A stretch of 43,565 bases of DNA from Methylocystaceae bacterium (GTDB taxonomy: Bacteria; Pseudomonadota; Alphaproteobacteria; Rhizobiales; Beijerinckiaceae): NCBI GenBank assembly GCA_009773555.1, contig WSXZ01000014.1, forward strand, positions 1 to 43,565, given 5' to 3'. Under the pieces are notes generated by a model, which worked only from the letters and a program-made list of their open reading frames with translations, was not told the origin of the DNA and ran no database searches. A program made the position numbers and the translations under genes. Position 1 is the stretch's first letter. Each line of letters begins with the position of its first letter. This document shows, piece by piece, positions 22,273-43,565 of this stretch.

Positions 22273-23655
22273 TTGGACCTCCAGAATATCACGCACATTC
22301 TCGCCGCGACGGATTTTTCCGACACTTCGATTTCCGCTTTGGAGCGCGGCTTTCTGATCGCGAAAGCCGCAGGGGCCCGATATTCGGTGGTCCACGCGGT
22401 TGACGACGGCGCCCTCACCTCACTGCGTCGACTGTTCGACGAGACGTTTGATCCATTCCCGAAAGATGCCAAAGAAAAAGCACGGGAACAACTGGAGAAA
22501 GTCGTTTCGGGCGCAAGCCAGGACTGCGGACTTTGCGCGGAGCTGCGGCTTGAAAATGGCTCCGCCTGGGCTGCGGTTTGCTCTCTCGCGGACACAACCG
22601 ATGCAGGCCTGATCGTCGTCGGAGCGCATGGCGGCGGCTTTTTGTCCCGACCTACGGTCGGCTCGACCGTTTCGCGCATTCTTCACCAGAGCCGACAGCC
22701 CGTCCTGATCGTGAAACGGCGGCCCGGTCAGGCGTACCAGCGCGTCCTTGTGGCCGCGGACTTTTCTCCCGTGTCAACCGCGACGGTTCGCCTCGCGCGC
22801 ACCATCGCGCCCGAGGCTGAGATCATTCTGATGCATGCGTTCGAGGAACCCTTGTATGAAGAGCTTCTCGAATATGACGGGGATGGCGAGCATATCGTTG
22901 ATCGGTATCGCGAGCGCGCGCATCGAGAGCTTCAGGAACTCGCGGCGGCATCCGGACTGTCCGCATCGCAGTTTTCCGCTCTCGTCGTCCGGGGCAACGC
23001 CAAACGGGCAATCGTCGCTCATGCGAACCAGCTCCGTTGTGACCTGATCGTCATGGGAAAACATGGGAGTGGAGGTATCGATGAGCTTCTTCTCGGCAGC
23101 GTCGCGAACCAAGTAGTGATCGACGCCGAAAGCGACATTCTCATCGTCGTCGATGCGCGCGAGCCAGAGCTTTGGTGCTACACCGAGGATAGAAGAGCGA
23201 AGACAAAGCTGCTCCAGTCGGATCGTTTCGACATTAGCGCCTGGGGCGTTGGCAGGGCCGGTTCGCTGAAGACGCTTGTCGCCGGCGAGGTTGGAGAGGA
23301 GATCGTGGAGGCGCTTCGCGAGGCGTTTGCGAAAGCAGATGTTTGCGAGATCAATTGGGGAGCGACGCTCACGCATGAAGATGTAGAGGCGCGACCCGTA
23401 GATCTTGTCATGACGCTGCCATTTTCGAGCGGCGGAGACGCCTGGGAGGGGCCTCTACTCCTTATCTCGCTAGAGAATGCCGTCCAGGAGCAGATCGACA
23501 AATTCGACGCATCTGGTGGCAGTGAGCCGAGCCCGGATGAATTGATAACGTTGCGAGATGGTCTGCACATGCTTGCGAACCGCCTCAATAAGGCGCGAAT
23601 CCGCAATGCGGCAAAAATCGCTCGGCGGGAAGAGCATAAGGCGCCGCTCTTTTGA
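22273..23655 (+). CDS. Tandem universal stress protein with an extra C-terminal domain of unknown function
   Basis: A 460-residue protein. Two UspA-type domains lie in tandem: about residues 5-150 (ILAATDFSDTSISAL, VVGAHGGGFLSRPTVGSTVSRIL, PVLIVKR) and about 155-300 (RVLVAADFSPVSTATV, VMGKHGSGGIDELLLGSVANQV, DILIVVD). The G-2x-G-9x-G(S/T) nucleotide-binding pattern can be traced in both. Residues about 305-460 do not match a Usp fold: a charged, mixed alpha/beta segment with WCYTEDRRAK, LKTLVAGEVGEEIVEALREAF and a long helical tail. The start is TTG at 22273 with AGGGAGCG ahead. It heads a run with a second Usp and a P-type ATPase, a set known from hypoxia and dormancy responses in other bacteria; its role here is inferred. 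Confidence 0.88.
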   Translation: MDLQNITHILAATDFSDTSISALERGFLIAKAAGARYSVVHAVDDGALTSLRRLFDETFDPFPKDAKEKAREQLEKVVSGASQDCGLCAELRLENGSAWAAVCSLADTTDAGLIVVGAHGGGFLSRPTVGSTVSRILHQSRQPVLIVKRRPGQAYQRVLVAADFSPVSTATVRLARTIAPEAEIILMHAFEEPLYEELLEYDGDGEHIVDRYRERAHRELQELAAASGLSASQFSALVVRGNAKRAIVAHANQLRCDLIVMGKHGSGGIDELLLGSVANQVVIDAESDILIVVDAREPELWCYTEDRRAKTKLLQSDRFDISAWGVGRAGSLKTLVAGEVGEEIVEALREAFAKADVCEINWGATLTHEDVEARPVDLVMTLPFSSGGDAWEGPLLLISLENAVQEQIDKFDASGGSEPSPDELITLRDGLHMLANRLNKARIRNAAKIARREEHKAPLF

Positions 23656-23831
23656 TCGTCGCCCGCCAGGGCGTTCATGCAACTCGCACGATGTATTCCG
23701 TAATGACAGTCGCGAGATCCTGAACGACGCCCCCGCTTGCTCGGTCGCAGTCCGTCGCGGGAAAAGGAATTCATGCGGGCGAACTGTCAACGGATGTCGA
23801 GTAAAACCCGTCCTGACAAGAAGGAAAGATG

Positions 23832-24254
23832 ATGTTCAAGAAAATCCTCCTCCCGATCGATCTCGAAGAAGCCGAGATGACGCGCCAGGCGATCGAAGCA
23901 GCCATTGAGATCGCCAGTCCCGACGCCGAACTGCGTCTTGTCAGTGTGCAAACGATGGCTCCCACGACCTTCGTCGAATACGCACCGCCTGATTACGAAG
24001 GTGAAGTGCGCCTTGTGGCCGAAAAGCACATCGCGGAAACTGCGGCCAGAATAAATTGCCCGCGTGAACGCGTTTCGACCATCGTGAGAATCGGCGCTGT
24101 CTATGACGAGGCGCTAATCGAGGCTGGAGAGTGGGGCGCCGATCTCATCGTTATCTGCTCGAACCGGCCAACTCTGGCGACGTATCTTCTTGGCTCCAAT
24201 GCCGCCAAAATCGTAAGGCACGCAACATGTTCGGTATTGGTGGTGCGGAAGTAG
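23832..24254 (+). CDS. Single-domain universal stress protein
   Basis: A 140-residue UspA-family protein: MFKKILLPIDLEEAEMT, LRLVSVQTMAPTTFVEY, GADLIVICSNRPTLATYLLGSNAAKIVRHATCSVLVVRK. The SNRPTLATYLLGSNAAKI stretch is the nucleotide-binding loop; its first glycine positions are changed compared with the ATP-binding consensus GxxGxxxxxxxxGS, so binding may differ. The second of two adjacent ATG codons is chosen because AAGGA then sits six bases away; the other gives one more Met. It is 176 bases after the tandem Usp gene and 298 bases before the P-type ATPase fusion. Confidence 0.88.
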   Translation: MFKKILLPIDLEEAEMTRQAIEAAIEIASPDAELRLVSVQTMAPTTFVEYAPPDYEGEVRLVAEKHIAETAARINCPRERVSTIVRIGAVYDEALIEAGEWGADLIVICSNRPTLATYLLGSNAAKIVRHATCSVLVVRK

Positions 24255-24552: not shown

Positions 24553-27500
24553 ATGAGCGATAATAAAGAGAATCCTAAGTCTAACTGGCCGGCTGTTCCA
24601 GCTGAGGCCGTTCTTGAAAGTTTCGGATCATCGAGCGCAGGATTGAGCGAAGGGGAAGCCGCGCGGCGACTCGCCCAGTATGGTCCTAATCTGCTTCCGC
24701 GCGGAAAGCGCCGCAGTCCATTTGTCCGATTCATCGCGCAATTCCACAATGTGATCATCTATGTCCTTCTCGCCTCGAGCGCTGGCGCTGCTGCTCTGGG
24801 CGATTGGTTGGACGCAGGCGTGATTTTAGCCGCGGTCATTATCAACGCCGCCATCGGATTTATTCAGGAAGGCAAAGCGGAAGAGGCCATGGACGCCGTC
24901 CGCAATATGCTCTCCCTCCATTCAACCGTGATCCGTGACGGGCGCCGACTGGTCGTGGATAGCGAATCCATAGTCCCTGGAGACATCATATTCGTTCAAT
25001 CAGGCGACAAGATTCCAGCCGACATGCGTCTTGTTCGGCTGAAGTCTCTACAGGTTCAGGAAGCCGCGCTAACGGGTGAGTCGTTGCCTGTCAGCAAAGA
25101 CGTTTCCTCAGTCGCCGAGGATGCGCTTCTCGCTGACCGCGCGTCGATGGCTTATTCCGGCACTGTCGTCACATATGGCCAAGGGATGGGCGTCGTGGTC
25201 GCGACCGGCGCCGCAACGGAACTCGGCCGCATCAGCGCTATGCTGTCCGAGGTCGCAGAGTTGACCACTCCCCTGCTTGAACAGATGGGGATATTTGGGC
25301 GTTGGTTGACGGTTATCATACTTGCAGTCGCCGCGGCGGTGTTCGCAATTGGGAAGGGGATATGGAGCCTTCCAACCTCGGACATGTTCATGGCGGCGGT
25401 CGGCGTGGTTGTCGCCGCGATTCCGGAAGGATTGCCGGCCGTCATCACAGTCACGCTCGCGATAGGCGTCCAGCGGATGGCGAAACGCCGTGCTATCATC
25501 AGACGCCTGCCCGCAGTCGAAACGCTGGGAGCCGTCACAACCATTTGCTCGGACAAGACGGGCACTTTGACTCGCAACGAGTTGACTGTTCGCACCGTCG
25601 TCACCGTGACTTCGATCTACGAAACCTCGGGTTCTGGTTACGATCCACGCGGCGCCTTCACCAAGGAGGGGCGCGACGTCCCAATCGACGGAGCGACAGA
25701 CCTTGTCGAGATCATGCGCGCCATCGCCTTGTGCAATGACGCGTCGCTACATGAAAAGGACGGCGTCTGGAGCATTGACGGCGACCCTACCGAGGGCGCC
25801 TTGCTGACCGCCGCCATGAAAGGCGGCCTGGACCTGCGACGGGAGCAGCAGGAGCTTTCGAGAACAGACGCGATACCATTTGAATCGCAGCATTGCTTCA
25901 TGGCGACGCTTCATCACGACCATCTCGGACAGGGATTTATTTTTGTGAAGGGCGCGCCGGAACGCTTACTTGATATGTGCGTCTCTGAGCGCAACCGAGA
26001 TCAAGGGCAGCGAACGCTCGACCGCGACTCTTGGCTCGCGCAGATAGATGCGATCGCAGCGAAAGGCCAGCGCGTGCTTGGCGTCGCCGTGAAACACACC
26101 GTCGCTGGCCATTGCGAGCTTACATTTGGCGACGTTGAGACTGGGCTCACCTTTCTTGGCCTGATTGGTTTGATTGACCCGCCGCGAGAAGAAACCCGTG
26201 ACGCTGTGCGTCAATGCGTTGCGGCGGGAATCGGCATCAAGATGATAACGGGCGATCACGCGGCGACGGCGGCGGCTATCGGCCGGGAGTTGAGACTCAA
26301 GAATCCGGACGCTGTGCTAACTGGCCGAGACTTAGACTTGCTGTCGGATGAAGAATTGAGCAATGCGGCATTGAGCACCACAATCTTTGCCCGCACAAGT
26401 CCAGAACATAAGCTCCGTCTCGTCAAGACCCTCCAAGATCAAGGGCAGATTGTTGCGATGACCGGCGACGGCGTCAATGACGCGCCAGCGCTCAAACGCG
26501 CTGATATCGGCATCGCCATGGGCGTGAAAGGAACTGAGGCCGCGAAAGAAGCCGCTGAAATGGTGCTGGCTGATGATAACTTCGCCTCGATTGTGCATGC
26601 CGTTTATGAGGGCCGCGTCGTCTACGACAACTTAAGAAAATGTATCATGTATATGCTGGCCATTAGCAGTGGCCAGGCGTTGACGATCGTGGCCGCGATT
26701 GCCTTCGGGGAAGCGCTGCCTATCACTCCAATCCAGATCCTTTGGGTCAATCTAGTCGACGGCGTAACGCTCGGCCTGGCGCTGGCTTTTGAGGCCGCCG
26801 AGCAGAACGTCATGGATCGTTCGCCGCGCGCGCCCAAAGAGCCGATCGTGTCTCGCTATTTGTTGTGGCGAACCGCATTTGTATCGTTCCTGGTGCTTAT
26901 TGCCACCTTCGGCCTCTATGAATTGGAAACGATTCATGGCGCCAACGTTGAGACAGCGCGAACCGTGGCCGTCAACACTCTCGTCGCATGTGGAATAGGC
27001 TACATTTTCAGCGTGAGACGTCTGGTCGCCTCATCCATATCCTGGGACGGATTTTTCGGCAGCCGTCCCGTGCTGATCGCTGTGAGTCTTATCGTCGTCT
27101 TTCAGGCCTTGTTCACTTATGCGCCATGGCTGCAAACCCTTTTTGGAACGAGCGGGTTGGGGTTACGTTCCTGGCTGAGCATTGTTGCTGCCGGAGTCTC
27201 AGTGTTTGCCATTGCGGAGCTAGAGAAGGCAGCCCGCCGTCATAAGAACTGGACCGATTCGGAGGCAGCCCAACCTATCGCCAAAGTCGGTCGCGTCCTG
27301 CCGATTCTTGGCGCTTTCGCGCTTCTCGTGACTGCAGGCGGTTGGCTTTACTTTAGCGTAATGAGTGGCCTCACGGTCGTGAGCGCTACGGGCGTCGTAA
27401 ATCCCCTCTCTGCCACTCCAATGACCGCTCAGGCGTCTGGCGTCGTTCAAGCGGTCTATTGTGATCCCGGATTGAAAGTGGCGAAAGGCCAACTCTGCGC

Positions 27501-28218
27501 GAAACTTGATCCGCGTCCCTTCGATGACATCATCGAAGGGGAGAAAGCCGCTCTTGCCGCGGCTGAAGTGACGCTCTCCGGAAGCAAGACAAGCCTCGCG
27601 GCCGCAGAGTCAGACCTCGATCGCAAGACAACGCTCTCGAAGCGGCGCGCCATCGCTCGCAAGGCGCTTGAGGCGTCGCGAAAAGCGGTTGCTCAGGCGC
27701 AGGCGCGCATGAGCCTGGCCGAGGCGGCGATCGCCGAACGCCGAGAAGCGCTGGCGGCAGCCGAGGCGGCGCTCGGCAAGACAGACGTTTTTGCGCCTTC
27801 CGAAGGCATCGTAGTCACGCGAAACGTCGCGGCGGGACAGAGGATCATCGCGGGCGTAGAAACGCCACTCTTCCTCATCGCGACCGATCTTGCGAACGTA
27901 CGAGTGGCGATCGAGGTCGCCGAAAAGGATGCTGGAAAGATCGAAGTTGGCGACGCAGCTGTCATCACGGTTGCGACTCTCCCCGGCAAGAAATTTTTCG
28001 GCGTGGTCAGCGGCGTGCGACGTGCGGAGGCAGGCAAAAGCGGCGTCACATACGAGGTTGCAATCGACACGGCCAACCCGGATCAATTACTTGAACCTGG
28101 CATGACGGCGACCGCAAGGATTGATGTTAACGGTCGCGACGCTTGGCGCATTGATCGCGCTCACACGACATCTAGGGTCCAGACCCATAAAATGCTCGGC
28201 ACGATCCAAGCGTCGTGA
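24553..28218 (+). CDS. P-type cation ATPase fused to a HlyD-type periplasmic adaptor
   Basis: A 1221-residue fusion. Residues 1-900 are a complete P2-type ATPase: N-terminal cation-ATPase domain (LAQYGPNLLP), TGES 174-177, PEGLP 291-295 in membrane helix 4, phosphorylation Asp334 in CSDKTGTLT, TGDGVNDAPALKRADIG, and C-terminal helices with WVNLVDGVTLGL in helix 6. An extra helix at about 915-937 then leads out of the membrane into a HlyD/RND-adaptor-like region. That region has a first lipoyl half (SGVVQAVYCDPGLKVAKGQ), an alanine-rich coiled-coil hairpin at about 995-1075, a second lipoyl half (TDVFAPSEGIVVTRNVAAGQ), and a beta-barrel part to about 1200. The last 14 residues (1208-1221) are encoded by an IS-derived mini-element, so the native C-terminus is replaced. 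It probably exports a cation; the ion is unknown. Confidence 0.9.
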   Translation: MSDNKENPKSNWPAVPAEAVLESFGSSSAGLSEGEAARRLAQYGPNLLPRGKRRSPFVRFIAQFHNVIIYVLLASSAGAAALGDWLDAGVILAAVIINAAIGFIQEGKAEEAMDAVRNMLSLHSTVIRDGRRLVVDSESIVPGDIIFVQSGDKIPADMRLVRLKSLQVQEAALTGESLPVSKDVSSVAEDALLADRASMAYSGTVVTYGQGMGVVVATGAATELGRISAMLSEVAELTTPLLEQMGIFGRWLTVIILAVAAAVFAIGKGIWSLPTSDMFMAAVGVVVAAIPEGLPAVITVTLAIGVQRMAKRRAIIRRLPAVETLGAVTTICSDKTGTLTRNELTVRTVVTVTSIYETSGSGYDPRGAFTKEGRDVPIDGATDLVEIMRAIALCNDASLHEKDGVWSIDGDPTEGALLTAAMKGGLDLRREQQELSRTDAIPFESQHCFMATLHHDHLGQGFIFVKGAPERLLDMCVSERNRDQGQRTLDRDSWLAQIDAIAAKGQRVLGVAVKHTVAGHCELTFGDVETGLTFLGLIGLIDPPREETRDAVRQCVAAGIGIKMITGDHAATAAAIGRELRLKNPDAVLTGRDLDLLSDEELSNAALSTTIFARTSPEHKLRLVKTLQDQGQIVAMTGDGVNDAPALKRADIGIAMGVKGTEAAKEAAEMVLADDNFASIVHAVYEGRVVYDNLRKCIMYMLAISSGQALTIVAAIAFGEALPITPIQILWVNLVDGVTLGLALAFEAAEQNVMDRSPRAPKEPIVSRYLLWRTAFVSFLVLIATFGLYELETIHGANVETARTVAVNTLVACGIGYIFSVRRLVASSISWDGFFGSRPVLIAVSLIVVFQALFTYAPWLQTLFGTSGLGLRSWLSIVAAGVSVFAIAELEKAARRHKNWTDSEAAQPIAKVGRVLPILGAFALLVTAGGWLYFSVMSGLTVVSATGVVNPLSATPMTAQASGVVQAVYCDPGLKVAKGQLCAKLDPRPFDDIIEGEKAALAAAEVTLSGSKTSLAAAESDLDRKTTLSKRRAIARKALEASRKAVAQAQARMSLAEAAIAERREALAAAEAALGKTDVFAPSEGIVVTRNVAAGQRIIAGVETPLFLIATDLANVRVAIEVAEKDAGKIEVGDAAVITVATLPGKKFFGVVSGVRRAEAGKSGVTYEVAIDTANPDQLLEPGMTATARIDVNGRDAWRIDRAHTTSRVQTHKMLGTIQAS

Positions 28219-32535: not shown

Positions 32536-33753
32536 TCACGCGGGCGTTCGCTCCGCCGGCGCCGGCCGCGCCGCTGTCCGCCGCGCATGCGCCAGCCGCG
32601 CGACACGCTTCTTCCACCAGATATAGACGCCGGTCACGGAGAGCATCGCCACGACGAGCCCCATTGCGCAGACGAAGAGGCGGTAGGGAAAACCAAAGAG
32701 ATTGGCCGTATGCAGTTCGACAAGCCAGGTGGTCAGCGTCATTCCGCTGCGATGGCCCGTCGGCAGCTTGAGGGCCTTCAGTTCGCCTGAGCGCGAATCG
32801 AACAGGATCGAAGTTGACCCCGCCTTGTCGCCGATGTCGCGCGACGAGCGCACCCGATATTCATAGAGGCCCCTGCCGTGCATGTGATAGAGCGCCAGCG
32901 GGCGTTCGATCGCAAAGCTGTGCCGGCGCGCCTGCTCCTCCATCAGCCGCTCGCCGGTCGCCTGCGCCGCCTCCCATTCCATCGGCGCGCGCGCGTCGTT
33001 TGGCGGCGTCCTCGCCTGCGCCCAGACCGGCGTCTCGTAATCGAGAACAAGCTGCGTCGCGCGCGTATAGAAATTGGGCAGCTTGAAGGAGACGCTCGAC
33101 CAGGCGAAGACGACGAGTATCGCCCATATCCATAGGCCCGCCGCGCGATGCAGATCGAAATTGACCCGATAAAAGGAGCTTTTGAACTTTACCAGCCACG
33201 ACGATTTCCAGCGCGCCAAGAAGCTTTTGCGTGAACGCTCTCCGCCCGCCGGCAACGTCAGGTAGAAGCCGACGAAACAATCGAGCGTCCAGAGGAGCGC
33301 CACCGCGCCGAGTATCCACTCGCCGATGCTTCCCAACGCGAGATACATGTGAAGCTGGTAGACGAATGGCATGATTTGGTCGACATGCACCGGGAGGCCG
33401 CCGACCTTGCGTCGGCCGAGTTCATGGCCGTCGAGCGGATCGAGGAACAACTGGTTGAAGGGAAGCGTCGGGTCGCTCAATCGTGGGGATACGCCGACGA
33501 CAACCGCGCCCGGATACCCAAGAAAAATCGTATCGACGCGGGCTTGGGGAGCGAGCGCCTCGGCGCGTCGCGCGAGCGTCGCCGCGTCGAGCGCTATCCC
33601 GGCGCGCGGGCCCGGAAAGAGCTCTGGCGTCAGCCAATGGTTCAACTCGCCCCAGAACGCGAGCAGGCTGCCGGTCAGACCGACGATGATCAGGAAGGCG
33701 GCCATGAGCAGTCCTGTCCAGCGATGCAGCCAAACAAAGAGCGCGCGGGTCAT
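32536..33753 (-). CDS. PepSY-domain inner-membrane protein
   Basis: A 405-residue protein starting at the ATG 33753 (MTRALFVWLHRWTGL), preceded by GCAGGAG. Four membrane helices can be placed: about 11-33 (LLMAAFLIIVGLTGSLLAFW), 165-190, 225-245 and 355-377 (FVCAMGLVVAMLSVTGVYIWW), with PepSY periplasmic parts between. It has the conserved FVYQLHMYL and VNFDLHRAAGLW histidine motifs of PepSY-associated transmembrane proteins. Members next to TonB-dependent siderophore receptors are thought to help reduce or release iron from imported chelates. Here the receptor gene lies 55 bases upstream, supporting that role by context. Confidence 0.9.
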   Translation of the reverse strand: MTRALFVWLHRWTGLLMAAFLIIVGLTGSLLAFWGELNHWLTPELFPGPRAGIALDAATLARRAEALAPQARVDTIFLGYPGAVVVGVSPRLSDPTLPFNQLFLDPLDGHELGRRKVGGLPVHVDQIMPFVYQLHMYLALGSIGEWILGAVALLWTLDCFVGFYLTLPAGGERSRKSFLARWKSSWLVKFKSSFYRVNFDLHRAAGLWIWAILVVFAWSSVSFKLPNFYTRATQLVLDYETPVWAQARTPPNDARAPMEWEAAQATGERLMEEQARRHSFAIERPLALYHMHGRGLYEYRVRSSRDIGDKAGSTSILFDSRSGELKALKLPTGHRSGMTLTTWLVELHTANLFGFPYRLFVCAMGLVVAMLSVTGVYIWWKKRVARLAHARRTAARPAPAERTPA

Positions 33754-33808
33754 GGCTTGATCTCCTGCGAACAACGTCCCCGCCGTCGCTGACGGCGGGG
33801 CGAATTCG

Positions 33809-36136
33809 TCACCATTCGAATTTGAGCGTTCCAACCACGGTCAACGGCTCCGCAGGGAAGGCCGCCAGACGAGGGCCAGCATTGAAATTAATGTCCGTTG
33901 CGGTGAAATATCGCGTGTTGGTGATGTTGTTGAGATTGAGCTGGGCGGTCAGCTTGTGGCCTTCATACAGCGTCGCATAGCTCGCCATTGCATCGAGCCG
34001 CGCCCATCCGGGAATGAGGAAGGTGTTCTGGATGTCGCCCCAGGCGCGGGTCGAAACCGTCACGCCGCCGCCGACGCGCCAGCCAAGGCCCGTATCGCCG
34101 AAATCATAGGTCAGCCAGACTTTGCCGGAGTGGCGAGGCACATTGTCGAGATGGTTCAAATAGAGTCCGCTCCCATAGGGATTCAGCGGATTTCTCGCAT
34201 TGTCGGCGATCACCTTGGCGTCGATGAGCGCATAATTGGCGAGTATGGCGAGACGATCATTGAAGCGACCCATGATATCGAGTTCAATGCCCCGGCTTCT
34301 TTGAAGACCCGCAAGCTTCAACGCCGTTGGATCCGTCGACGCAAAATCGCGTGTCGTCAGATTCGATCTCGTGAGCTGGAATATCGCGAGATTCGCCGAA
34401 AGATCGGGCAAGGGCTGCGTTTTGAGTCCGACCTCCCACTGAACGCCGATCTGCGGTGGAAAGGTCTGACCAGTCGTCGTCGAATTATTGGGACCGAAGG
34501 AACGCGTGTAGCTGCCGTAGACGCTGGCCTCTGGGATCACGTCGTAGACGACGCCAAATCGCGGGCTCCAAGCTTTGTCCTGGCGTGAAGGTCGTCGCAG
34601 CCGGTCTTGCGCCGCCGCCCATGCGCTGGCGCTGTAGTTGGGAGCGGCGCTTGCAGAGCTGCCGCTCGTCACGTCGGCGATGTCGTAACGCACGCCCAGC
34701 AGGATATGCGCCTTGTCATCCAGGACGTTGATGAGGTCCTGGACATACATGCCCTTTTGGCGCTGCAGATTCGATGAATAGCCTTTATTGAGGCCGCCGA
34801 ACAACGCAGAATCATATGCCCAGCCCGGAACCAGTCCATAGATCGGGGCGAAAACGTTTATCGGAAACCGCGCGGCTCTTCCGAACGCATAGACGTTGTA
34901 CTGGTTCAGATAATCCAACCCGAACAAGAATGTATGCTTGGCTCCGAAGGTATCAAACTTGCCTTCAAGATTGATGTTCGTTGAAAATGCGTCTCCCTGA
35001 GTCGATTGGAACTGAGTGAATCGGTTCAGCGTGACTGCATCCAAAAAGCCCACCGCAATGATGCCTCTTTCCATACTATTGTGCGACAAATAAAGGAAAC
35101 GATTGACGATCTTCCAGTCCTCGTTGAGGTTTTGTCTGAACACGTAGCTTCCTACGAAGGAATCCGTGCCGCTACGGGGAACGTTTGGCTCCTGATAAGA
35201 ACGCCGGAGCGGAACGTCGAGGGGCGCCGACGCATTGGGTAACGTCGGAATGCCGTTCACCACATTGACCTTATTGCTGAGATACTGGAGATCGGCGGTG
35301 AATTCCGTCCAGGGGCTCGGCTGATAGGTCACGACCGGCGCGATCAGGAAGCGCTCGCCGTGTTGGAATTGCCGAAACACGCGGCTGTTCTGATAGGCGC
35401 CTGAGACGCGGTAGGCGAGTCCCTGAACCTGCTCCACCGGCGCCGAGAAATCCCATTGCGTTCGATAATGATCGTAGTTCCCAATCTGCTGTTCGACGAC
35501 GTAGCGCGGCGTGAACAGCGGCTGTTTCGTCACGATGTTGACGAGGCCGCCAGGATCGGAGCGGCCGTAGAGGATCGACGCTGGCCCCTTGAGCACCTCG
35601 ATGCGCTCGACATTGGCGAGGTCGGTGAATAAGCCGAAGAAGCCGCCCTGATTGAGCTGGTTGCGAAACGTTTGGCGGACGTCGAAGCCACGAATCTTGA
35701 ATGTATAACCGGTGATGTCGTTGTTCCCACGATTGGTCCCGCGAGCTCCCGGAACGTTTTCGAGTGCGCCTTGCAAACTCGTGAGCGCCTGATCGCGGAT
35801 CACCTGCTTGGGCACGACATTGATCGTGACAGGCGTCTGTCTGATCGGAATGTCCGCCTTCATCCCAGTCGATGCATCGTGGACGACATAGCCTTCGGTC
35901 GGATTTTTCGGTTCGCTGGAGACGGTGGACGTTCCGCCCTGTGTCTCGGCGCTCGTCGTCGGTCCTAACGCTGGCCTTCCCCCCGGCCCGGGAGCGGCGC
36001 GCGGCGCCGGCCCCACGCGCCGCTGGCCGCCGACGTCGATGGTGGGCAGCGATTGCTGCGCTTGGGCGAGCGAGGCTGAAAGCGCAAGTCCGAGTGCGCC
36101 GGCGGAAACGCCGCGCGATAGGCTGCAACGAAACAT
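33809..36136 (-). CDS. TonB-dependent siderophore receptor
   Basis: A 775-residue outer-membrane receptor. The signal peptide ends near residue 26 (SASLAQA). A TonB-box-like LPTIDVGG follows, then a proline/glycine-rich linker. The plug domain starts at about 85 (IPIRQTPVTINVVPKQVIRDQ, later RGFDVRQTFRNQ and VLKGPASILYGRSDPGGLVN). The rest is a 22-strand barrel ending in the aromatic VVGTLKFEW. Subfamily features (RIEVLKGP, NDRLAILANYALIDAKV, DNVPRHSGKVWLTYDF) place it with ferric-hydroxamate/catecholate siderophore receptors. There is no N-terminal signalling domain, so it does not itself trigger a FecR/FecI cascade. It is operonic with the PepSY gene downstream. Confidence 0.95.
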   Translation of the reverse strand: MFRCSLSRGVSAGALGLALSASLAQAQQSLPTIDVGGQRRVGPAPRAAPGPGGRPALGPTTSAETQGGTSTVSSEPKNPTEGYVVHDASTGMKADIPIRQTPVTINVVPKQVIRDQALTSLQGALENVPGARGTNRGNNDITGYTFKIRGFDVRQTFRNQLNQGGFFGLFTDLANVERIEVLKGPASILYGRSDPGGLVNIVTKQPLFTPRYVVEQQIGNYDHYRTQWDFSAPVEQVQGLAYRVSGAYQNSRVFRQFQHGERFLIAPVVTYQPSPWTEFTADLQYLSNKVNVVNGIPTLPNASAPLDVPLRRSYQEPNVPRSGTDSFVGSYVFRQNLNEDWKIVNRFLYLSHNSMERGIIAVGFLDAVTLNRFTQFQSTQGDAFSTNINLEGKFDTFGAKHTFLFGLDYLNQYNVYAFGRAARFPINVFAPIYGLVPGWAYDSALFGGLNKGYSSNLQRQKGMYVQDLINVLDDKAHILLGVRYDIADVTSGSSASAAPNYSASAWAAAQDRLRRPSRQDKAWSPRFGVVYDVIPEASVYGSYTRSFGPNNSTTTGQTFPPQIGVQWEVGLKTQPLPDLSANLAIFQLTRSNLTTRDFASTDPTALKLAGLQRSRGIELDIMGRFNDRLAILANYALIDAKVIADNARNPLNPYGSGLYLNHLDNVPRHSGKVWLTYDFGDTGLGWRVGGGVTVSTRAWGDIQNTFLIPGWARLDAMASYATLYEGHKLTAQLNLNNITNTRYFTATDINFNAGPRLAAFPAEPLTVVGTLKFEW

Positions 36137-36215
36137 GAGATTTCTCCAGGCGCGGCGACTTGCGCCCGCGCGAACCGAGGTGAAGAAATGCAGCGGCTAA
36201 ACCGCGTGCAGTCGG

Positions 36216-36635
36216 TCAGGAGAAGATTGGGGGCCCGCGCGACGAGTGGGAGTTGATCCAGCCTTTCGGCGGCGCGCCCAAAGTGGCGATCGCGGTCGAT
36301 TCCAGCGTCGATATCAGGGCAAATGGAACGAAACGGACAGTCCCGATCTGCAAGATGGCGGGGTCGAAGCTGGATACATGGCCTCTGGCGATGCAAAAAA
36401 CGCAGCTTTTATGATGATGATGGCGGGGAGAGTTTGGAACGCCGTCCCCATCCACATCCGCATTGTAGCAATCGGCGACGATGGCGGATGCTTCGGCGCT
36501 CGCGCCCCATGCGCCGCCGGTCCGTCCATTGGAGAGAAGATCGAGGCCGAGAACTTGCAGAAAGACCAGGCACGCGGCAGCGATCGCGACGCCTGCGCGC
36601 GCTGATCTGTTCCGACGTGTCCAAAGCCTTGTCAC
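36216..36635 (-). CDS. DUF2946-like small exported protein with His/Cys motif
   Basis: A 139-residue protein. An N-terminal hydrophobic segment (VAIAAACLVFLQVLGLDLL, residues 16-34) acts as signal or anchor. The middle carries RHHHHKSCVFCIARG, a four-histidine run beside a CxxC, and the end is WINSHSSRGPPIFS. This arrangement matches DUF2946-type proteins, often coded near TonB receptors and copper or iron genes. Metal binding is likely from the residues but unproven. It is the first gene of the minus-strand iron-uptake run, 79 bases before the receptor. Confidence 0.75.
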   Translation of the reverse strand: MTRLWTRRNRSARAGVAIAAACLVFLQVLGLDLLSNGRTGGAWGASAEASAIVADCYNADVDGDGVPNSPRHHHHKSCVFCIARGHVSSFDPAILQIGTVRFVPFALISTLESTAIATLGAPPKGWINSHSSRGPPIFS

Positions 36636-36928
36636 CGTTCGATTACCCCGAAATTTTTGCCCTGCCGCTAGCTCAAAGAAAAAGCGGTTAGAAGCTCAGG
36701 CGCCGGCGCATGCGGCGCGTTCGTGGAATCAAACGTAACTTTTTTCGAAGCCCGGAAAGTTTCATGACGATTCCAACCCCTGGGCAGTAGCGATAATTTT
36801 GTTATTGTTGCATCTTCGCCACACCCAAGGCTCGTCGGATTGACCTTGTAAGGGGATGTCTGCTCTGATCGTTCCTCCAATAGACAGCTTGGCAAGAGCG
36901 ATTTTTGTGTTCCTTGGCGGAAGGTCAC
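36636..36928. promoter_or_regulatory. Divergent intergenic region between the iron-uptake run and the two-component genes
   Basis: This 293-base gap must contain promoters in both directions. It has an AT-rich block around 36785-36810 (GATAATTTTGTTATTG) and ends in GGAAGGTC before the response-regulator ATG. No clear gene or Fur-type 19-bp palindrome is seen by eye. Confidence 0.4.
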
Positions 36929-37603
36929 ATGCGAATTCTCTTGGTTGAAGATGAGTTGGAGGTCGCGCGCTCGATTTCCCGCGAACTCGCCCGCGCAGGA
37001 TTTGTCGCCGACCATGTTGCCTCGATCGACGAAGCTCGGCGGGCGCTGAAAGCTCTTCCCTACGCTCTGGTGATGCTGGATCGGCGGCTGCCCGACGGCG
37101 ACGGGTTGTCCTTGGCGCCAGAGATGCGCCGGATGCGGCCAGGCGTTCAGGTCTTGATATTGACCGCTTGCAACAAGACGGACGAGATCGTGGCGGGCCT
37201 CGACGCCGGCGCCGACGATTATCTGACGAAGCCTTTCGACTTCGATGAATTATTGGCGAGGACGCGTGTCGCTATGCGTCGCCATGGCGGTTCGCTTCCG
37301 GCGATTGTCGTCGGCGATCTGTCCTTCGATCCGCGCCTTCGCGATGTTTCGGTGCGCGGCAAATCAGTTGTCTTGCATGGACGCGAGTTGAAGCTGCTTG
37401 AAGTTCTCATGCGTCATGCGGATCGCATGGTGTCGCGCCAGACCCTCCTCGAGGAAATCTACGGTTTTGACGAAGACATCCAGCCGAGCGTCTTGAACCT
37501 GCTTGTCTTGCGCTTACGTCGGCGTTTGGAAGAATTCGGCGCCAGCGTGACAATTCACGCGGCGCGCGGCGTCGGCTATATGATAAGGGCGTCGCGTCCG
37601 TGA
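36929..37603 (+). CDS. OmpR-family response regulator
   Basis: A 224-residue two-domain regulator. In the receiver domain, residues 1-120, the acidic pocket is Glu7/Asp8, the phosphorylation site is Asp51 in VMLDRRLPDGDGL, and the conserved lysine is in LTKPFDF. The DNA-binding domain, about 130-220, is a winged helix (GRELKLLEVLMRHADRMVSR, then HAARGVGYMIR). The ATG at 36929 is chosen over an in-frame TTG at 36905 because it gives the standard RILLVEDE start and follows GGAAGGT. It overlaps the kinase gene by four bases. It is divergent from the iron/siderophore genes, which it may control; the signal is unknown. Confidence 0.94.
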   Translation: MRILLVEDELEVARSISRELARAGFVADHVASIDEARRALKALPYALVMLDRRLPDGDGLSLAPEMRRMRPGVQVLILTACNKTDEIVAGLDAGADDYLTKPFDFDELLARTRVAMRRHGGSLPAIVVGDLSFDPRLRDVSVRGKSVVLHGRELKLLEVLMRHADRMVSRQTLLEEIYGFDEDIQPSVLNLLVLRLRRRLEEFGASVTIHAARGVGYMIRASRP

Positions 37604-39025
37604 TAAGATGGCGTTCGCTGTCGTCGCGCTTGATCGCCTATTGGATCGTCGGCTCGGCGTTCGTGTTTTTCACGCTGCCGGCTGTGATACATCTTTCCCT
37701 CGCGGCGCTTCGGCTTGCCGTCTATCCGGAAGTGAATCTCGAAAGCTGGACCACGCAGAGGGCCCGCTATGTCGTGGAGGCGGCCCTTCGACAGGAGCGG
37801 GATGGCCGAAAATTCGTCGAGCAAACCGACGTCTTGCGCGCGTACATGAGCCGTAATCCGGATTTTCGATTTGCCGCCATCGACGCGACCCTCGGCGTCC
37901 TTCTGCCCGGATCGTCGGTCGAATTGGCGAATGCCTTCTCGCCGCTCACGCGAGTCGACTTGATCGCTCTTTCATTTCATCTGGCCGACGATCCCAACCC
38001 GGACGCTCGCGGATGGGTTCGCTCGATCGACACTGGCGTCGGCAGGATCACATTCATTCTCTATGGCGCACATTTCCATTGGGATGATGTGCTCTACAAT
38101 ATGTCCTATTACTTCACGATCCAGAATCTTTTCGTCTATCTCCCGCTCGCCGGGGTAATGGCGTTGATTGCCGTCCTTGTGGTGCGGCGAGGCTTGGCCC
38201 CTTTGCGCAGGGCGGCTGAGAGAGTCGCCAGGATCGGCGTGAATTCGCTCAACGAGCGCATTCCCTGCGCCGAGCTGCCTTTGGAAATCCTGCCTTTTGT
38301 CGAGTCGGTGAACAATGCGCTGGCGCGCGTCGACGACAGCGTGTCCCGCCAAAAACGTTTCCTCGCCAACGCGGCCCATGAACTGCGCACGCCAATCACG
38401 ATATTATGCGCCCATATCGCCAATCCCGACGAGGCGACGTTCCGGCAAGACGTCAAGCGCGACGCGCGGCGCATTCGCACCATCGTCGAGCAATTGCTGA
38501 GCGTGGCGCACATTGAGGGTCAAAAGGACGCGATCGGAAAAGCCGCCGACCTCGGAAAAACGGCCCTCTCCGTGATCTTGGATTACATGCCCTTGGCGAT
38601 CCAAAACGGCCGCACTATCGAACTGGACTGTCCGCCTTCACCCGTCAATGTGCACGCCGATCCATGGGCCCTGGAAAGCGTCATCACAAATTTGATTGAA
38701 AACGCCGTTCGCGCCGAACCTGCGGGTGGAACGGTTTTGGTGCGCGTATTGCCGGACGCGACGATCGAAGTCATCGATCACGGCCCTGGCGTCGCCGCGG
38801 AAGATCGCAATGCTATCTTTGAGCCGTTCTGGCGAAAAAGCGACACTGCCCGGCGCCGGATTAGGCCTCGCTATCGCAAAGGAGCTGGTGGACAAACTTG
38901 GGGGGCGGATCTGGGTCGAAGAAACGCCCGGCGGCGGCGCGACCTTCAAGTTGTCGCTCCGGCGAACTGACTCAATTGGAGCTGCGGCAGAGGTCCGGAC
39001 AAAGCTTCATAGCGGCGTAGCGTAG
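37600..39025 (+). pseudogene. Sensor histidine kinase gene with a frameshift in the ATPase domain
   Basis: Frame 1 (GTG at 37600, translationally overlapping the regulator) gives membrane helix 1 (about 13-38), a periplasmic domain, and helix 2 (about 175-195). A HAMP-like segment follows, then the phosphoacceptor His260 in AAHELRTPITIL, the N box NLIENAVRAEP and the D box DHGPGVAAED. At about 38842-38851 the G2 region shifts: frame 1 continues as an arginine-rich tail to 38970. The expected PGAGLGLAIAKELVDKLGGR and GGGATFKLSL follow in the next frame to 39025. One extra base or two missing bases would explain it. If real, the kinase loses its nucleotide lid and probably its activity; an assembly error is equally possible. 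Confidence 0.85.
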
Positions 39026-40299: not shown

Positions 40300-43200
40300 C
40301 TATTCGGGCGTCGCGGCGGAATTTGGCGCAATGACGAATAGCGGAAACTCTTGATTGACTTGAAACTGTTGGCCCGCTTCGGCGTTGCGTGAAATGACCG
40401 TGCCGTCGACGGGCGAGAAAATGTCCGTGAGCGCAAGATCGTTCTTCGCCGCCGCAAGCGCCTTTTGGCTTCTCGCGACGTCAGCTTCGTCAGCGGCAGC
40501 CCGCGCCTTCGCCCTTTCGTATATGACGCGCGACCTGTCGAGCGCCGCGCGGGACTTGGCGCCGTGCGCGCCCAGATCCTGCCTTCGCTCGAAATCCTTT
40601 TGCGCGCGCAGCAGGGCCTCTGCGCTCCTGTCGCGCCGCTGCTGAGCGTTCGCCAGAGCCGCCTTTTCCCGATCCACCACAGCCTCGAAAGGCCGCGGAT
40701 CGATCTTGCCGCAAAGCTGGCCCGCTTTGATTGCGGCGTCCGGCTCGCAGAACATCGCATCGATTCTCCCCGACACCCGCGCGCCGAAGGTCACTGGAAT
40801 CGGCGCATCCATCCACTCCTTTGCTGTTCCCGAATGGATCGCAGCGCTCTCGCGCAGGTCTTCACTCACATATTGATTCGCGGCGCCTCGATGCAGATAC
40901 GAATAGACTTCTCCAGCGATCAGGCCCAATACCGCAAGCCCTCCCAACGCCCCCTGCCAATTGGCCGAGCGGCGAGAAGCCGGCGCCGATGAGGTTTGCG
41001 CGACGGCGCGTTGGATCTCCAGAGGAAGGGACTCGGCCGGCGGTTCCGGGGCCGGCGATGAGCGGCGCCTGGATCGATAGGCGCGAATGACGAATTTCTC
41101 CGCCTCTACGATGAGGAAGAACGCCAAGCCGCCTAAGAACAGCCACGGCCAAACATCCAGGGGAATGGCGGCAGCGCCGAACAAACGCTGCAGCGGCGGC
41201 GCATAAGTGAACAGAAGCTGGAGAATGATAACCGCGCCGACGCCGAGCGGCACATAGCGGTTGCCAAGATGCGCGGCGATCGACAGCGACGAATCCGTCT
41301 TGAAGCGGCTGTTGAACAGATAGAAGACCTGGCCGATGACGAGCGCATTGACTGCAACGGCGCGCGCAAGTTCGTCGGCGGCGTCTTGCGACTTCATCCA
41401 GAAGAACGCCGACAGGGTGAGGACAAGCAGCGCCAGACCAACAAAGATGACCCGCCATATCGCGAAGCCGTCGAGTATCGGTCGCGACACCGCGCGCGGG
41501 GGACGCTGCATCACGTCGATCTCGTGTGGCTCAAAGGAGATGACGAGCCCAAGCGCCACCGACGTCACCATGTTGACCCAAAGGATCTGCGGAGCCGTGA
41601 TCGGCAAGATGAATCCGACGACGATCGCGACGAGAATGACCAGCGCCTGGGCGACGTTGGTCGGCAACATGAAAAGCAGAGCCTTTTCAATATTGTTGTA
41701 GACCGTCCGCCCTTCACGAACCGCCGCCGTGATCGACGCGAAATTGTCGTCGGCGAGCACCATCGCCGCGGCTTCCTTCGTGACCTCGGTGCCTTTGATG
41801 CCCATCGCCACGCCAATATCGGCGCGTTTGAGCGCCGGCGCATCATTAACGCCGTCGCCGGTCATCGCCACGACCTGACCGTTCGCCTGGATCGCTTTCA
41901 CGAGCCGCAGTTTGTGCTCGGGGCTCGCGCGCGCGAAAACGTCAACATTGCGCACCGTCTCCTGGAGCGCGGCGTCGTTCATCTCTTCGATTTCGGCGCC
42001 GGCGACGGCGGTTCTCCCGTCGCCGATGCCGAGCATCTTGGCGATCGCCGCCGCTGTGACCTTGTGATCGCCCGTGATCATCGTCACCCGAATGCCGCCA
42101 TTGTGGCATTCGGCGACGGCCTCGACCGCTTCCTTACGCGGCGGGTCCATCAGTCCGACCAGCCCTAAAAGGATGAGGTCGCGAGGCAAATCCTCGGGCG
42201 CCAGACTCGTTGTCTCAACACGCGGATTGGGCAGCCAGGCTAGTCCCAGCACCCGTTCGCCCTGCGCCGCGAGCCGGTCCGACGCCTGCATCCAATAATC
42301 GCGCATCAGCGGCGTGGGAACGCTTTCAGTTTCCTGCCGGCTGCAGTGCGCCAGAATGACTTCGGGCGCTCCCTTGACGAGCAGCATGCGGCCGCCGCCC
42401 GCGTCCTCATGCAAGGTCGCCATGAATTTGTGTTCGGACTCAAAGGGTATCGCGTCGATCCTGCGCCGCCCCGCTCTTTCGGCTTGCCGGTCGAACCCTA
42501 GTTTGGCGGCGAAAGGATAAAGCGCGGCCTCGGTGGGGTCGCCTTCGACCTTCCACACGCCGTCCGATTGGCGCAGCTCGGAGTCGTTGCAAAGCGCTGA
42601 AACCATGGCCATGCGCTTGAGGACAACGCTTTGACCTGCCGGCTCGCCGTCGAGCAGCACCTCGCCTTCGCTCGCATACCCGTCGCCCGTGACATGATAT
42701 TGCGAATTCGCGCTGACGGCCGAAGCGACCATCATTTCCATGAGCGTCAGCGTGCCGGTCTTGTCGGAGCAAATTCTCGATACGGATCCGAGCGTTTCCA
42801 CTGCGGGAAGGCGGCGGATGATGGCGTTGCGCTGCGCCATCCGCTGCACCCCGATCGCCATCGTAATCGTGATCAGCGCAGGCAAGCCTTCGGGGATCAC
42901 CGAGACGGCGATGCCCACTACCGCTTGAAAAGCCTCGACGAACGGCAGGTCACGCACCCACCGCCCATAGGCGAAGATCAGGACGCTGATGACGCCGATC
43001 ACTTTCGCGATCGTGTGTCCGAACTCTTTGATCTGGCGCAGCAGGGGCGTTTCAAGCACATTGACCGCGGCCAGCATCTGATTGATGCGGCCGAGCTCCG
43101 TCGCTGCGCCTGTGCCGACGACGATCCCCAGGGCGCGACCCGAGACGACCAGAGTGCCTGAGAACGCCAAGTTCTCGCGATCTCCGACCGTCGAATTTTC

Positions 43201-43565
43201 CGGCGTCAGGTCCGTCGACTTGTCCGCCGGCACGGACTCCCCCGTCAGGGCGGCTTCGTCCGTCCGCAGGTTTTTCACCTCGATGAGGCGAATGTCCGCG
43301 GGTATGCGGTCGCCTGATTCGAGAAGCACGACGTCGCCTGGAACGAGTTCCTCCGCGGCGACGACGCGCGTCTCGCCATCGCGCAACGTGCGAGCCTCGG
43401 AAGAAAGCATGTTGCGGATTGAATCCAGCGCCTTTTCAGCCTTGCCTTCCTGGATAAAGCCGAGCAGCGCATTGATGACGACGACGCCGGTGATGATCGA
43501 CGCGTCGAGCCAAAGTCCGAGCATCAGCTTGATGAAGCCGGCGGCAAGCAGGACATAGACAAGGA
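40300..43565 (-). CDS. Second P-type cation ATPase-HlyD fusion; N-terminus beyond window, adaptor truncated
   Basis: Open from the window edge to TAG at 40300-40302; at least 1087 residues are visible. ATPase signatures: [24 protein letters not shown] (helix 4), [46 protein letters not shown] (helix 5) and [12 protein letters not shown] (helix 6), resembling CtpF-type pumps. After a charged cytoplasmic linker, another helix ([18 protein letters not shown]) leads to an adaptor region: [24 protein letters not shown] (lipoyl half), an alanine/arginine-rich coiled coil, then [20 protein letters not shown] (second half). It stops at [15 protein letters not shown], so the beta-barrel present in the copy at 24553 is missing. 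A transglutaminase fragment follows in frame. It shares layout with, but is clearly diverged from, the first copy. Confidence 0.9.
   Translation of the reverse strand, partial: [1087 protein letters not shown]

Follow-up and report, generated by a model that had tools for sequence, protein, structure and literature searches.

Why would a P-type ATPase, a kind of pump that to our knowledge works without a periplasmic adaptor, be encoded in one reading frame with such an adaptor? The question is raised by an open reading frame (ORF), named P0001, on contig WSXZ01000014.1 of the Methylocystaceae bacterium assembly GCA_009773555.1. The window analysed here is this entire contig, 43,565 bases from a 4.0 Mb draft genome. 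We find that P0001 joins a P2-type ATPase to an adaptor with a predicted MacA-like fold, that related fusions exist for three classes of P-type pump, and that the docking and gating motifs of the adaptor are changed in most of them. In most fusions the adaptor seems to have been repurposed instead of being kept as an exit pipe.

A pump, an added helix and an adaptor in one frame

The original prediction, made from the letters of the DNA alone, was that a P-type ATPase continues through an extra membrane helix into a HlyD-type adaptor, and Pfam, NCBIfam and a hydrophobicity scan all bear this out. The features of the gene are as follows.

24553..28218, plus strand: P2-type ATPase/MacA-like adaptor fusion gene (P0001), 1221 aa, open throughout with no internal stop codon
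24589..27231, plus strand: P2-type ATPase part, residues 13-893, from Cation_ATPase_N to Cation_ATPase_C, phosphorylation site CSDKTGT (D334)
27295..27351, plus strand: putative extra transmembrane helix TM11, residues 915-933 (Kyte-Doolittle scan, 19-mer mean 1.81)
27373..27507, plus strand: predicted lipoyl half 1, residues 941-985, with the Cys970/Cys982 pair (AlphaFold model, sequence comparison)
27514..27777, plus strand: predicted alpha-hairpin, residues 988-1075, with R1024-L1028-A1035 at its tip instead of the RLS motif (AlphaFold model, motif comparison)
27784..27870, plus strand: predicted lipoyl half 2 with a shortened gate loop (GQRIIAGVETPLF), residues about 1078-1106 (AlphaFold model, loop comparison)
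27871..28125, plus strand: predicted beta-barrel domain, residues 1107-1191 (AlphaFold model; Foldseek best match E. coli MacA)

On the pump side, Pfam assigns Cation_ATPase_N to residues 13-76, E1-E2_ATPase to 119-312, Cation_ATPase to 392-476, Hydrolase to 521-651 and Cation_ATPase_C to 722-893, and with its A, P and N domains, membrane core and the motifs DKTGT and TGDGVND the protein falls in the P2 class of P-type ATPases. On the adaptor side, Pfam reports HlyD_D23 at residues 955-1186 (E 3.6e-20; score 72.6 over a cut-off of 30) and HlyD_3 at 1079-1183, and the NCBIfam model RND_mfp (TIGR01730) matches residues 944-1196 with 109.5 bits, above its curated cut-off of 94.9. A helix resembling TM11, with a Kyte-Doolittle mean of at least 1.3, is found in all 54 of the distinct fusions described below, and AlphaFold2 predicts a helix near TM11 of P0001 at low confidence (predicted local distance difference test, pLDDT, 30-46).

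The lipoyl halves, hairpin and barrel that had been read from the sequence, with a structure prediction proposed as the check, are returned at high confidence by an AlphaFold2 model of residues 881-1207 built from 63 sequences. The pLDDT is mostly >90 over all of these domains, and the hairpin is modelled as two helices of about 40 residues each. E. coli MacA is the top match of the adaptor by both Foldseek and profile search, and the predicted fold is MacA-like. The adaptor thus shares with E. coli MacA, the adaptor of MacB-TolC, the sequence and fold of the lipoyl, hairpin and barrel domains. Unlike MacA, it sits behind an ATPase, carries a Cys pair and has an altered RLS motif and gate loop. 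Since the match ends at residue 300 of the 371 of E. coli MacA, P0001 is without the membrane-proximal domain.

The pump part shares its catalytic domains and C-terminal membrane domain with the P2A-type ATPases (the PMR1/SERCA/LMCA1 group). Unlike them, P0001 has the extra helix and the adaptor, and it stays under both Ca2+-ATPase equivalog cut-offs (TIGR01522, 641 against 798 bits; TIGR01116, 594 against 703 bits). In an alignment with SERCA, the M5/M6 residues N768, E771, T799 and D800, which we take to be ion ligands, are replaced in P0001 by S, Q, D and G. With both cut-offs missed and these residues changed, an identity of P0001 as a calcium pump is not supported.

The same genome carries further copies. 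A second, diverged copy with the same join had been predicted at the far end of the contig. The join is indeed present there, on the minus strand, in a gene whose 5' end lies beyond the contig edge and whose adaptor stops after the second lipoyl half, with the barrel absent. This adaptor scores under the cut-offs of both RND_mfp (61.1 bits, cut-off 94.9) and HlyD_D23 (15.5, cut-off 30).

40300..43563, minus strand: second fusion copy (P0002, copy 2), 1087 aa read, with P2 ATPase, TM11 and lipoyl-hairpin-lipoyl
41089..43563, minus strand: ATPase part of copy 2, residues 1-825 (Pfam; DNA identity to locus L075)
40894..40950, minus strand: putative TM11 of copy 2, residues 872-890 (hydrophobicity scan)
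40318..40812, minus strand: adaptor part of copy 2, residues 918-1082, RLS motif and Cys pair kept

Contig 88 (C88) holds another intact fusion of 1204 aa, or 1200 aa when counted from its ATG. On contig 15 (C15; L024:8143-11740) the pump (993 aa) and the adaptor (252 aa) lie in different frames, through either a sequence error or a broken gene.

Three pump classes, one exchanged adaptor

We collected 54 distinct fusions from the fetched loci and the window, duplicates being recognised by their last 200 residues; left out were the two-frame copy on contig 15, G013, the G016 gene and, from G018, the twins of the AI-2E and P1B fusions of G019. By motifs and best BLAST match, 38 of the pumps are P2, 12 are P1B and 4 are P3. 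NCBIfam models exceed their cut-offs for P1B in L068 and L082 and for P3A in L055, with RND_mfp over its cut-off in each of the three; the P3-like L073 has both its pump and adaptor parts under the NCBIfam cut-offs. The P1B fusions contain an additional domain, with Pfam Hemerythrin over its cut-off between pump and adaptor in all 10 that were tested of the 12, and two of the P2 fusions are preceded in frame by an AI-2E_transport domain.

L053 (16785 on, minus strand), L068, L070, L071, L082, L086, L088, L090, L091, L093-L095: P1B ATPase, hemerythrin and MacA-like adaptor in one frame
L053:6787-11586, minus strand: three-part fusion of AI-2E_transport, P2 ATPase and adaptor, 1600 aa
L061:5620-10515, minus strand: three-part fusion of AI-2E_transport, P2 ATPase and adaptor, 1632 aa

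P1B-5 ATPases with a C-terminal hemerythrin domain are known from A. cellulolyticus and S. meliloti, according to passages of PMC9388753; unlike the pumps described there, the P1B fusions carry a MacA-like adaptor after the hemerythrin domain. On plasmid pRX1 of Methylocapsa polymorpha, an AI-2E gene and a universal stress protein (Usp) gene are lined up with a P1B pump and then another P-type ATPase. This P1B pump is divided: its beginning lies in a different frame from the hemerythrin and adaptor parts, which share one, and the annotation lists the adaptor as a protein of its own.

In a FastTree phylogeny of the adaptors, 51 of the 54 fusion adaptors form one clade (support 0.98) in which P2, P1B and P3 pumps are mixed, and those outside it are two P3 and one P2. 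DNA comparisons point the same way. Copy 2 and L075 are 97-99% identical as far as codon 800; beyond it the identity falls first to 85% and then, across the linker and adaptor, to 67-77%, and their synonymous divergence (dS) rises from 0.06 in the pump to 0.73 in the adaptor. L074 and L075 have the reverse pattern: here it is the pump that has diverged more (dS 0.49, against 0.10 for the adaptor). The identity break in the one pair and the reversed dS in the other indicate that the adaptor recombines apart from the pump, and it is therefore a module exchanged between pumps. Over 21 hand-chosen pairs, several of which share a member, the ratio of nonsynonymous to synonymous divergence (dN/dS) is 0.22-0.73 in the adaptor, below 1 in every pair, and 0.06-0.22 in the pump. 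The adaptor is thus under purifying selection, with other or weaker constraint than the pump.

One-frame fusions, recognised by a long tail behind the pump motifs, were found in 27 of the 39 genomes of the genus Methylocystis (source genome counted), the adaptor query matches 33 of the 39 at 1e-12, and one fusion lies on the complete Methylocystis rosea plasmid pGW6_1. With fused frames in so many genomes and on a complete plasmid, chance or assembly error is very unlikely, and since adaptor dN/dS also stays below 1 we reject both, in agreement with the earlier argument that the join is no artefact. In a family sample of 199 genomes (11 candidates scored in each), only three of the 43 genera (g1, g40 and g42) have frames of 1000 aa or more; when opened, the long frames of g40 and g42 proved to be pumps with adaptors. 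A second search of g42 found frames >1000 aa in 8 of its 10 genomes, two of which (G1283 and G179) are known by length only.

Outside these three genera, no fusion was seen in 297 genomes of the order (1e-45), nor in 385 class and 349 phylum genomes (1e-75), in each case with 4 or 5 candidates scored per genome; 1e-75 is a limit below which fusions with other pump classes could score. Four long pump frames came up in the order: three (G255, G396 and G494) are plain pumps of 940-954 aa when opened, and the fourth (G411), unopened, is 1037 aa long. A contig scan with one short barrel pattern gave four fusions in the 80 loci kept, all from Methylocystis or Methylocystaceae records.

The same three genera are the only ones of the 43 with a match to PF02461 (pmoA/amoA), which is present in 19 of the 199 family genomes. 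Fusion and pmoA occur together in 12 genomes, fusion alone in 1 (the source genome), pmoA alone in 7 and neither in 179 (Fisher p 1e-13, with genomes of one genus not being independent); this table scores G004 as fusion-negative, its match having missed the 1e-18 limit, despite the P1B fusion found in that genome. The source genome (G000; 99% complete draft, 144 contigs) has no PF02461 match, which may reflect an assembly gap; seven sampled genus mates have one. That bearers of ammonia or particulate methane monooxygenase (AMO/PMO) have the fusion in general finds no support in one AMO-positive family around G969 (110 genomes), whose members are perhaps ammonia oxidisers: no open frame among the matches listed holds both pump and adaptor, and one match in G1223 spans both parts only across three stops.

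Among the search results listed from the openly licensed literature, no paper announces a P-type ATPase-adaptor fusion. A word search for 'P-type' finds nothing in the text of a 2026 review of periplasmic adaptors (PMC13328181), and the term is likewise absent from the first part of a 2021 review (PMC8277102). That one adaptor lineage sits on three P-type classes and is swapped between pumps suggests a fold that can be reused apart from tripartite efflux. The fusions may matter for how methane-oxidising bacteria deal with ions or metals.

Docking motif, gate loop and the role of the adaptor

Passages of PMC3391258 describe RxxxLxxxxxxS at the hairpin tip as the TolC-binding RLS motif, with the serine as its more permissive position. 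We compared the fusions at this motif with 62 stand-alone adaptors, of which 6 come from eight loci within the genus (left out were L034, missed by the filter, and L040, a fragment) and 56 are from a set of 57 that the barrel pattern picked up elsewhere (L113, which may belong to a fusion, was dropped and L105 kept). All six in-genus adaptors are followed by a MacB-like ATP-binding cassette (ABC) frame, as judged by eye. P0001 reads R-L-A at the tip and so lacks the complete motif, which is present in only 4 of the 54 fusions, compared with 40 of the 62 stand-alone adaptors (6/6 within the genus, 34/56 elsewhere). The leucine position is L, I or M in 13/54 fusions and 60/62 stand-alone adaptors.

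The second difference lies in the gate loop, which we define as the segment of the lipoyl domain aligned with residues 202-213 of E. coli MacA; PMC8277102 describes a gating ring formed by the lipoyl domain of MacA. The loop signature Q[TASN]P is found in 1 of 54 fusions, P0001 not among them, against 55 of 62 stand-alone adaptors. All 62 of the latter have a loop length of 14, compared with 8 of the fusions; in the other 46 the loop is shortened, and it is changed even in those that keep RLS. A Cys pair in lipoyl half 1, which judging by position could form a disulfide, is present in all 54 fusions and in 16 of the 56 stand-alone adaptors from elsewhere; the six in-genus controls cannot be used for this count because they were picked by requiring a C-x11-C pair. 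The stand-alone adaptor of L034 keeps the Cys pair, RLS and the gate loop. Hairpin tips are also more basic in the fusions, with a basic fraction of 0.38 (P2/P3) and 0.26 (P1B) compared with 0.21 and 0.14 in stand-alone adaptors.

The reading we favour, at slightly better than an even chance, is that the pump carries in its own chain a MacA-derived periplasmic domain with a regulatory or anchoring task. The gene product would be a single inner-membrane protein consisting of a P2-type cation pump, an eleventh helix and a MacA-like adaptor. TM11 would carry the chain to the periplasm, a side suggested by the odd helix count and by homology, so that the adaptor would be a covalently attached periplasmic domain. 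This domain most likely goes back to a MacA-type protein that stood alone and served an ABC pump. It would have ceased to be a TolC-docking channel in most members; there it would instead act in cis, in a regulatory or anchoring role comparable to that of an accessory subunit, and might hold or sense something at the outer face of the pump or in the lumen of intracytoplasmic membranes. A parallel is provided by P-type ATPases with an OmpA domain at their C-terminal end, one of which is in the source genome.

L026:13759-17109 (contig 35 of the source genome), plus strand: P-type ATPase with a terminal OmpA domain, 1116 aa

Such frames, 1025-1185 aa long, occur in 9 of the 39 genus genomes (G000, G003, G005, G009, G010, G011, G025, G032 and G033), and Pfam finds pump and OmpA domains in one frame in all four tested (G000, G009, G011 and G025). 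These fusions lend support to the idea that, in this genus, pumps of this kind are fitted with periplasmic domains for anchoring or sensing.

Several observations weigh against a repurposed adaptor, and some of these favour a conduit, in which the adaptor would oligomerise, dock to a TolC-family channel and let the pumped ion cross the outer membrane; P-type ATPases would then join the known energisers of tripartite efflux. The fold is of the full MacA type, and hairpin length is the same in fusions and stand-alone adaptors (median 90 each). The RLS arginine is kept in 45/54 fusions, with serine or threonine at the last position in 29/54, and the four that retain the full motif are copy 2, the C88 copy, M. 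rosea (L021) and L051, the first two from the source genome. OEP (outer-membrane channel) matches are present in all eight genomes checked, 22 to 39 in each. One of them lies 6.3 kb from the C88 fusion, and others lie 4.7-7.1 kb from genes of the short class, whose members have no barrel, in G002, G003, G012 and G019. On pGW6_1 an operon of a major facilitator superfamily (MFS) pump, HlyD and outer membrane subunit starts about 4 kb from the fusion, with the channel gene at 5.3 kb. A resistance-nodulation-division (RND) pump stands beside the short-class fusion in all four loci tested (L188, L190, L193 and L194), accompanied by an OEP gene in L188 and by a membrane fusion protein (MFP) in L190 and L194. 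The fusion sequences are moreover related, so the motif counts are not independent events, and the motif change could come from an altered channel partner. With a mean pLDDT of 60, the AlphaFold model of the whole chain is too poor to show how adaptor and pump are arranged, and the positive-inside rule is uninformative (K+R before TM11 higher in 22/54, equal in 7 and lower in 25).

For the fusions as a whole we nevertheless consider a conduit rather unlikely. RLS and the gate loop are altered in most of them, the loop even where RLS is kept; short-class members lack the barrel; the efflux operons nearby own an adaptor (HlyD with the MFS pump in M. rosea, MFP with the RND pumps in L190 and L194); and we know of no precedent for six-fold adaptor packing around a P-type monomer. 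A conduit towards the outer membrane was one option of the original prediction. For most members it is not supported as the leading idea, with both motifs changed in most fusions and kept in the stand-alone MacA homologues of the genus that were read; the sensor or scaffold option of the same prediction fits better and is still a candidate. A conduit is possible for the RLS-keeping members and some short-class ones, because these respectively keep the motif or have channel genes nearby. A shade less probable than the conduit itself is the broader proposal that methanotrophs built envelope-spanning P-type pumps, with an exchangeable MacA-derived module on P1B, P2 and P3 ATPases and some members still docking to a TolC-family channel; if this were true, the P-type ATPase would be a further kind of engine for trans-envelope export.

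Two other explanations do without docking. Long hairpins might bridge facing membranes or peptidoglycan and so position pumps in the intracytoplasmic-membrane lumen of methanotrophs. This is in line with the restriction of the fusions, in the family sample, to the three genera with pmoA, with the ATPase-OmpA fusions and with the Arg/Lys-rich hairpin tips. The genera in question presumably have intracytoplasmic membranes. Against the idea, a related P1B pump on a Methylocella tundrae plasmid is without an adaptor; we regard such a spacer as improbable. Least probable in our view is that the adaptor does little and is simply carried along by recombination. Its faster evolution (dN/dS up to 0.73), the exchange and truncation of the module and the split frames of the C15 copy would all agree with this, but dN/dS below 1 in 21 of 21 pairs, the universal Cys pair and the fused frame in 27 of 39 genomes argue against it. 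A fusion gene offers a direct genetic test of the role of an adaptor once its docking motifs are gone.

Neighbouring genes

Around 15 long-class loci, SIMPL is the most frequent family (9) among 96 neighbouring ORFs, and the 25 of 50 families listed near these 15 genes include no outer-membrane channel family; the M. rosea and contig 88 genes do not belong to this count. Beside their short-class fusions, L190 and L194 both have a Na/Pi cotransporter, and L194 has PPK2 as well. In the window, the gene context directly upstream of P0001 is as follows.

22273..24254, plus strand: two universal stress protein ORFs

On contig 65 of the source genome (L027:4623-7616), PfkB-like and FtsH-like ORFs adjoin a short P-type ATPase fragment, as judged by eye; this group is possibly a remnant of a stress-gene cluster like one on M. 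rosea pGW6_1. Near copy 2, positions 32536-38970 of the window hold a PepSY_TM protein and a TonB-dependent receptor on the minus strand, followed by a two-component system on the plus strand.

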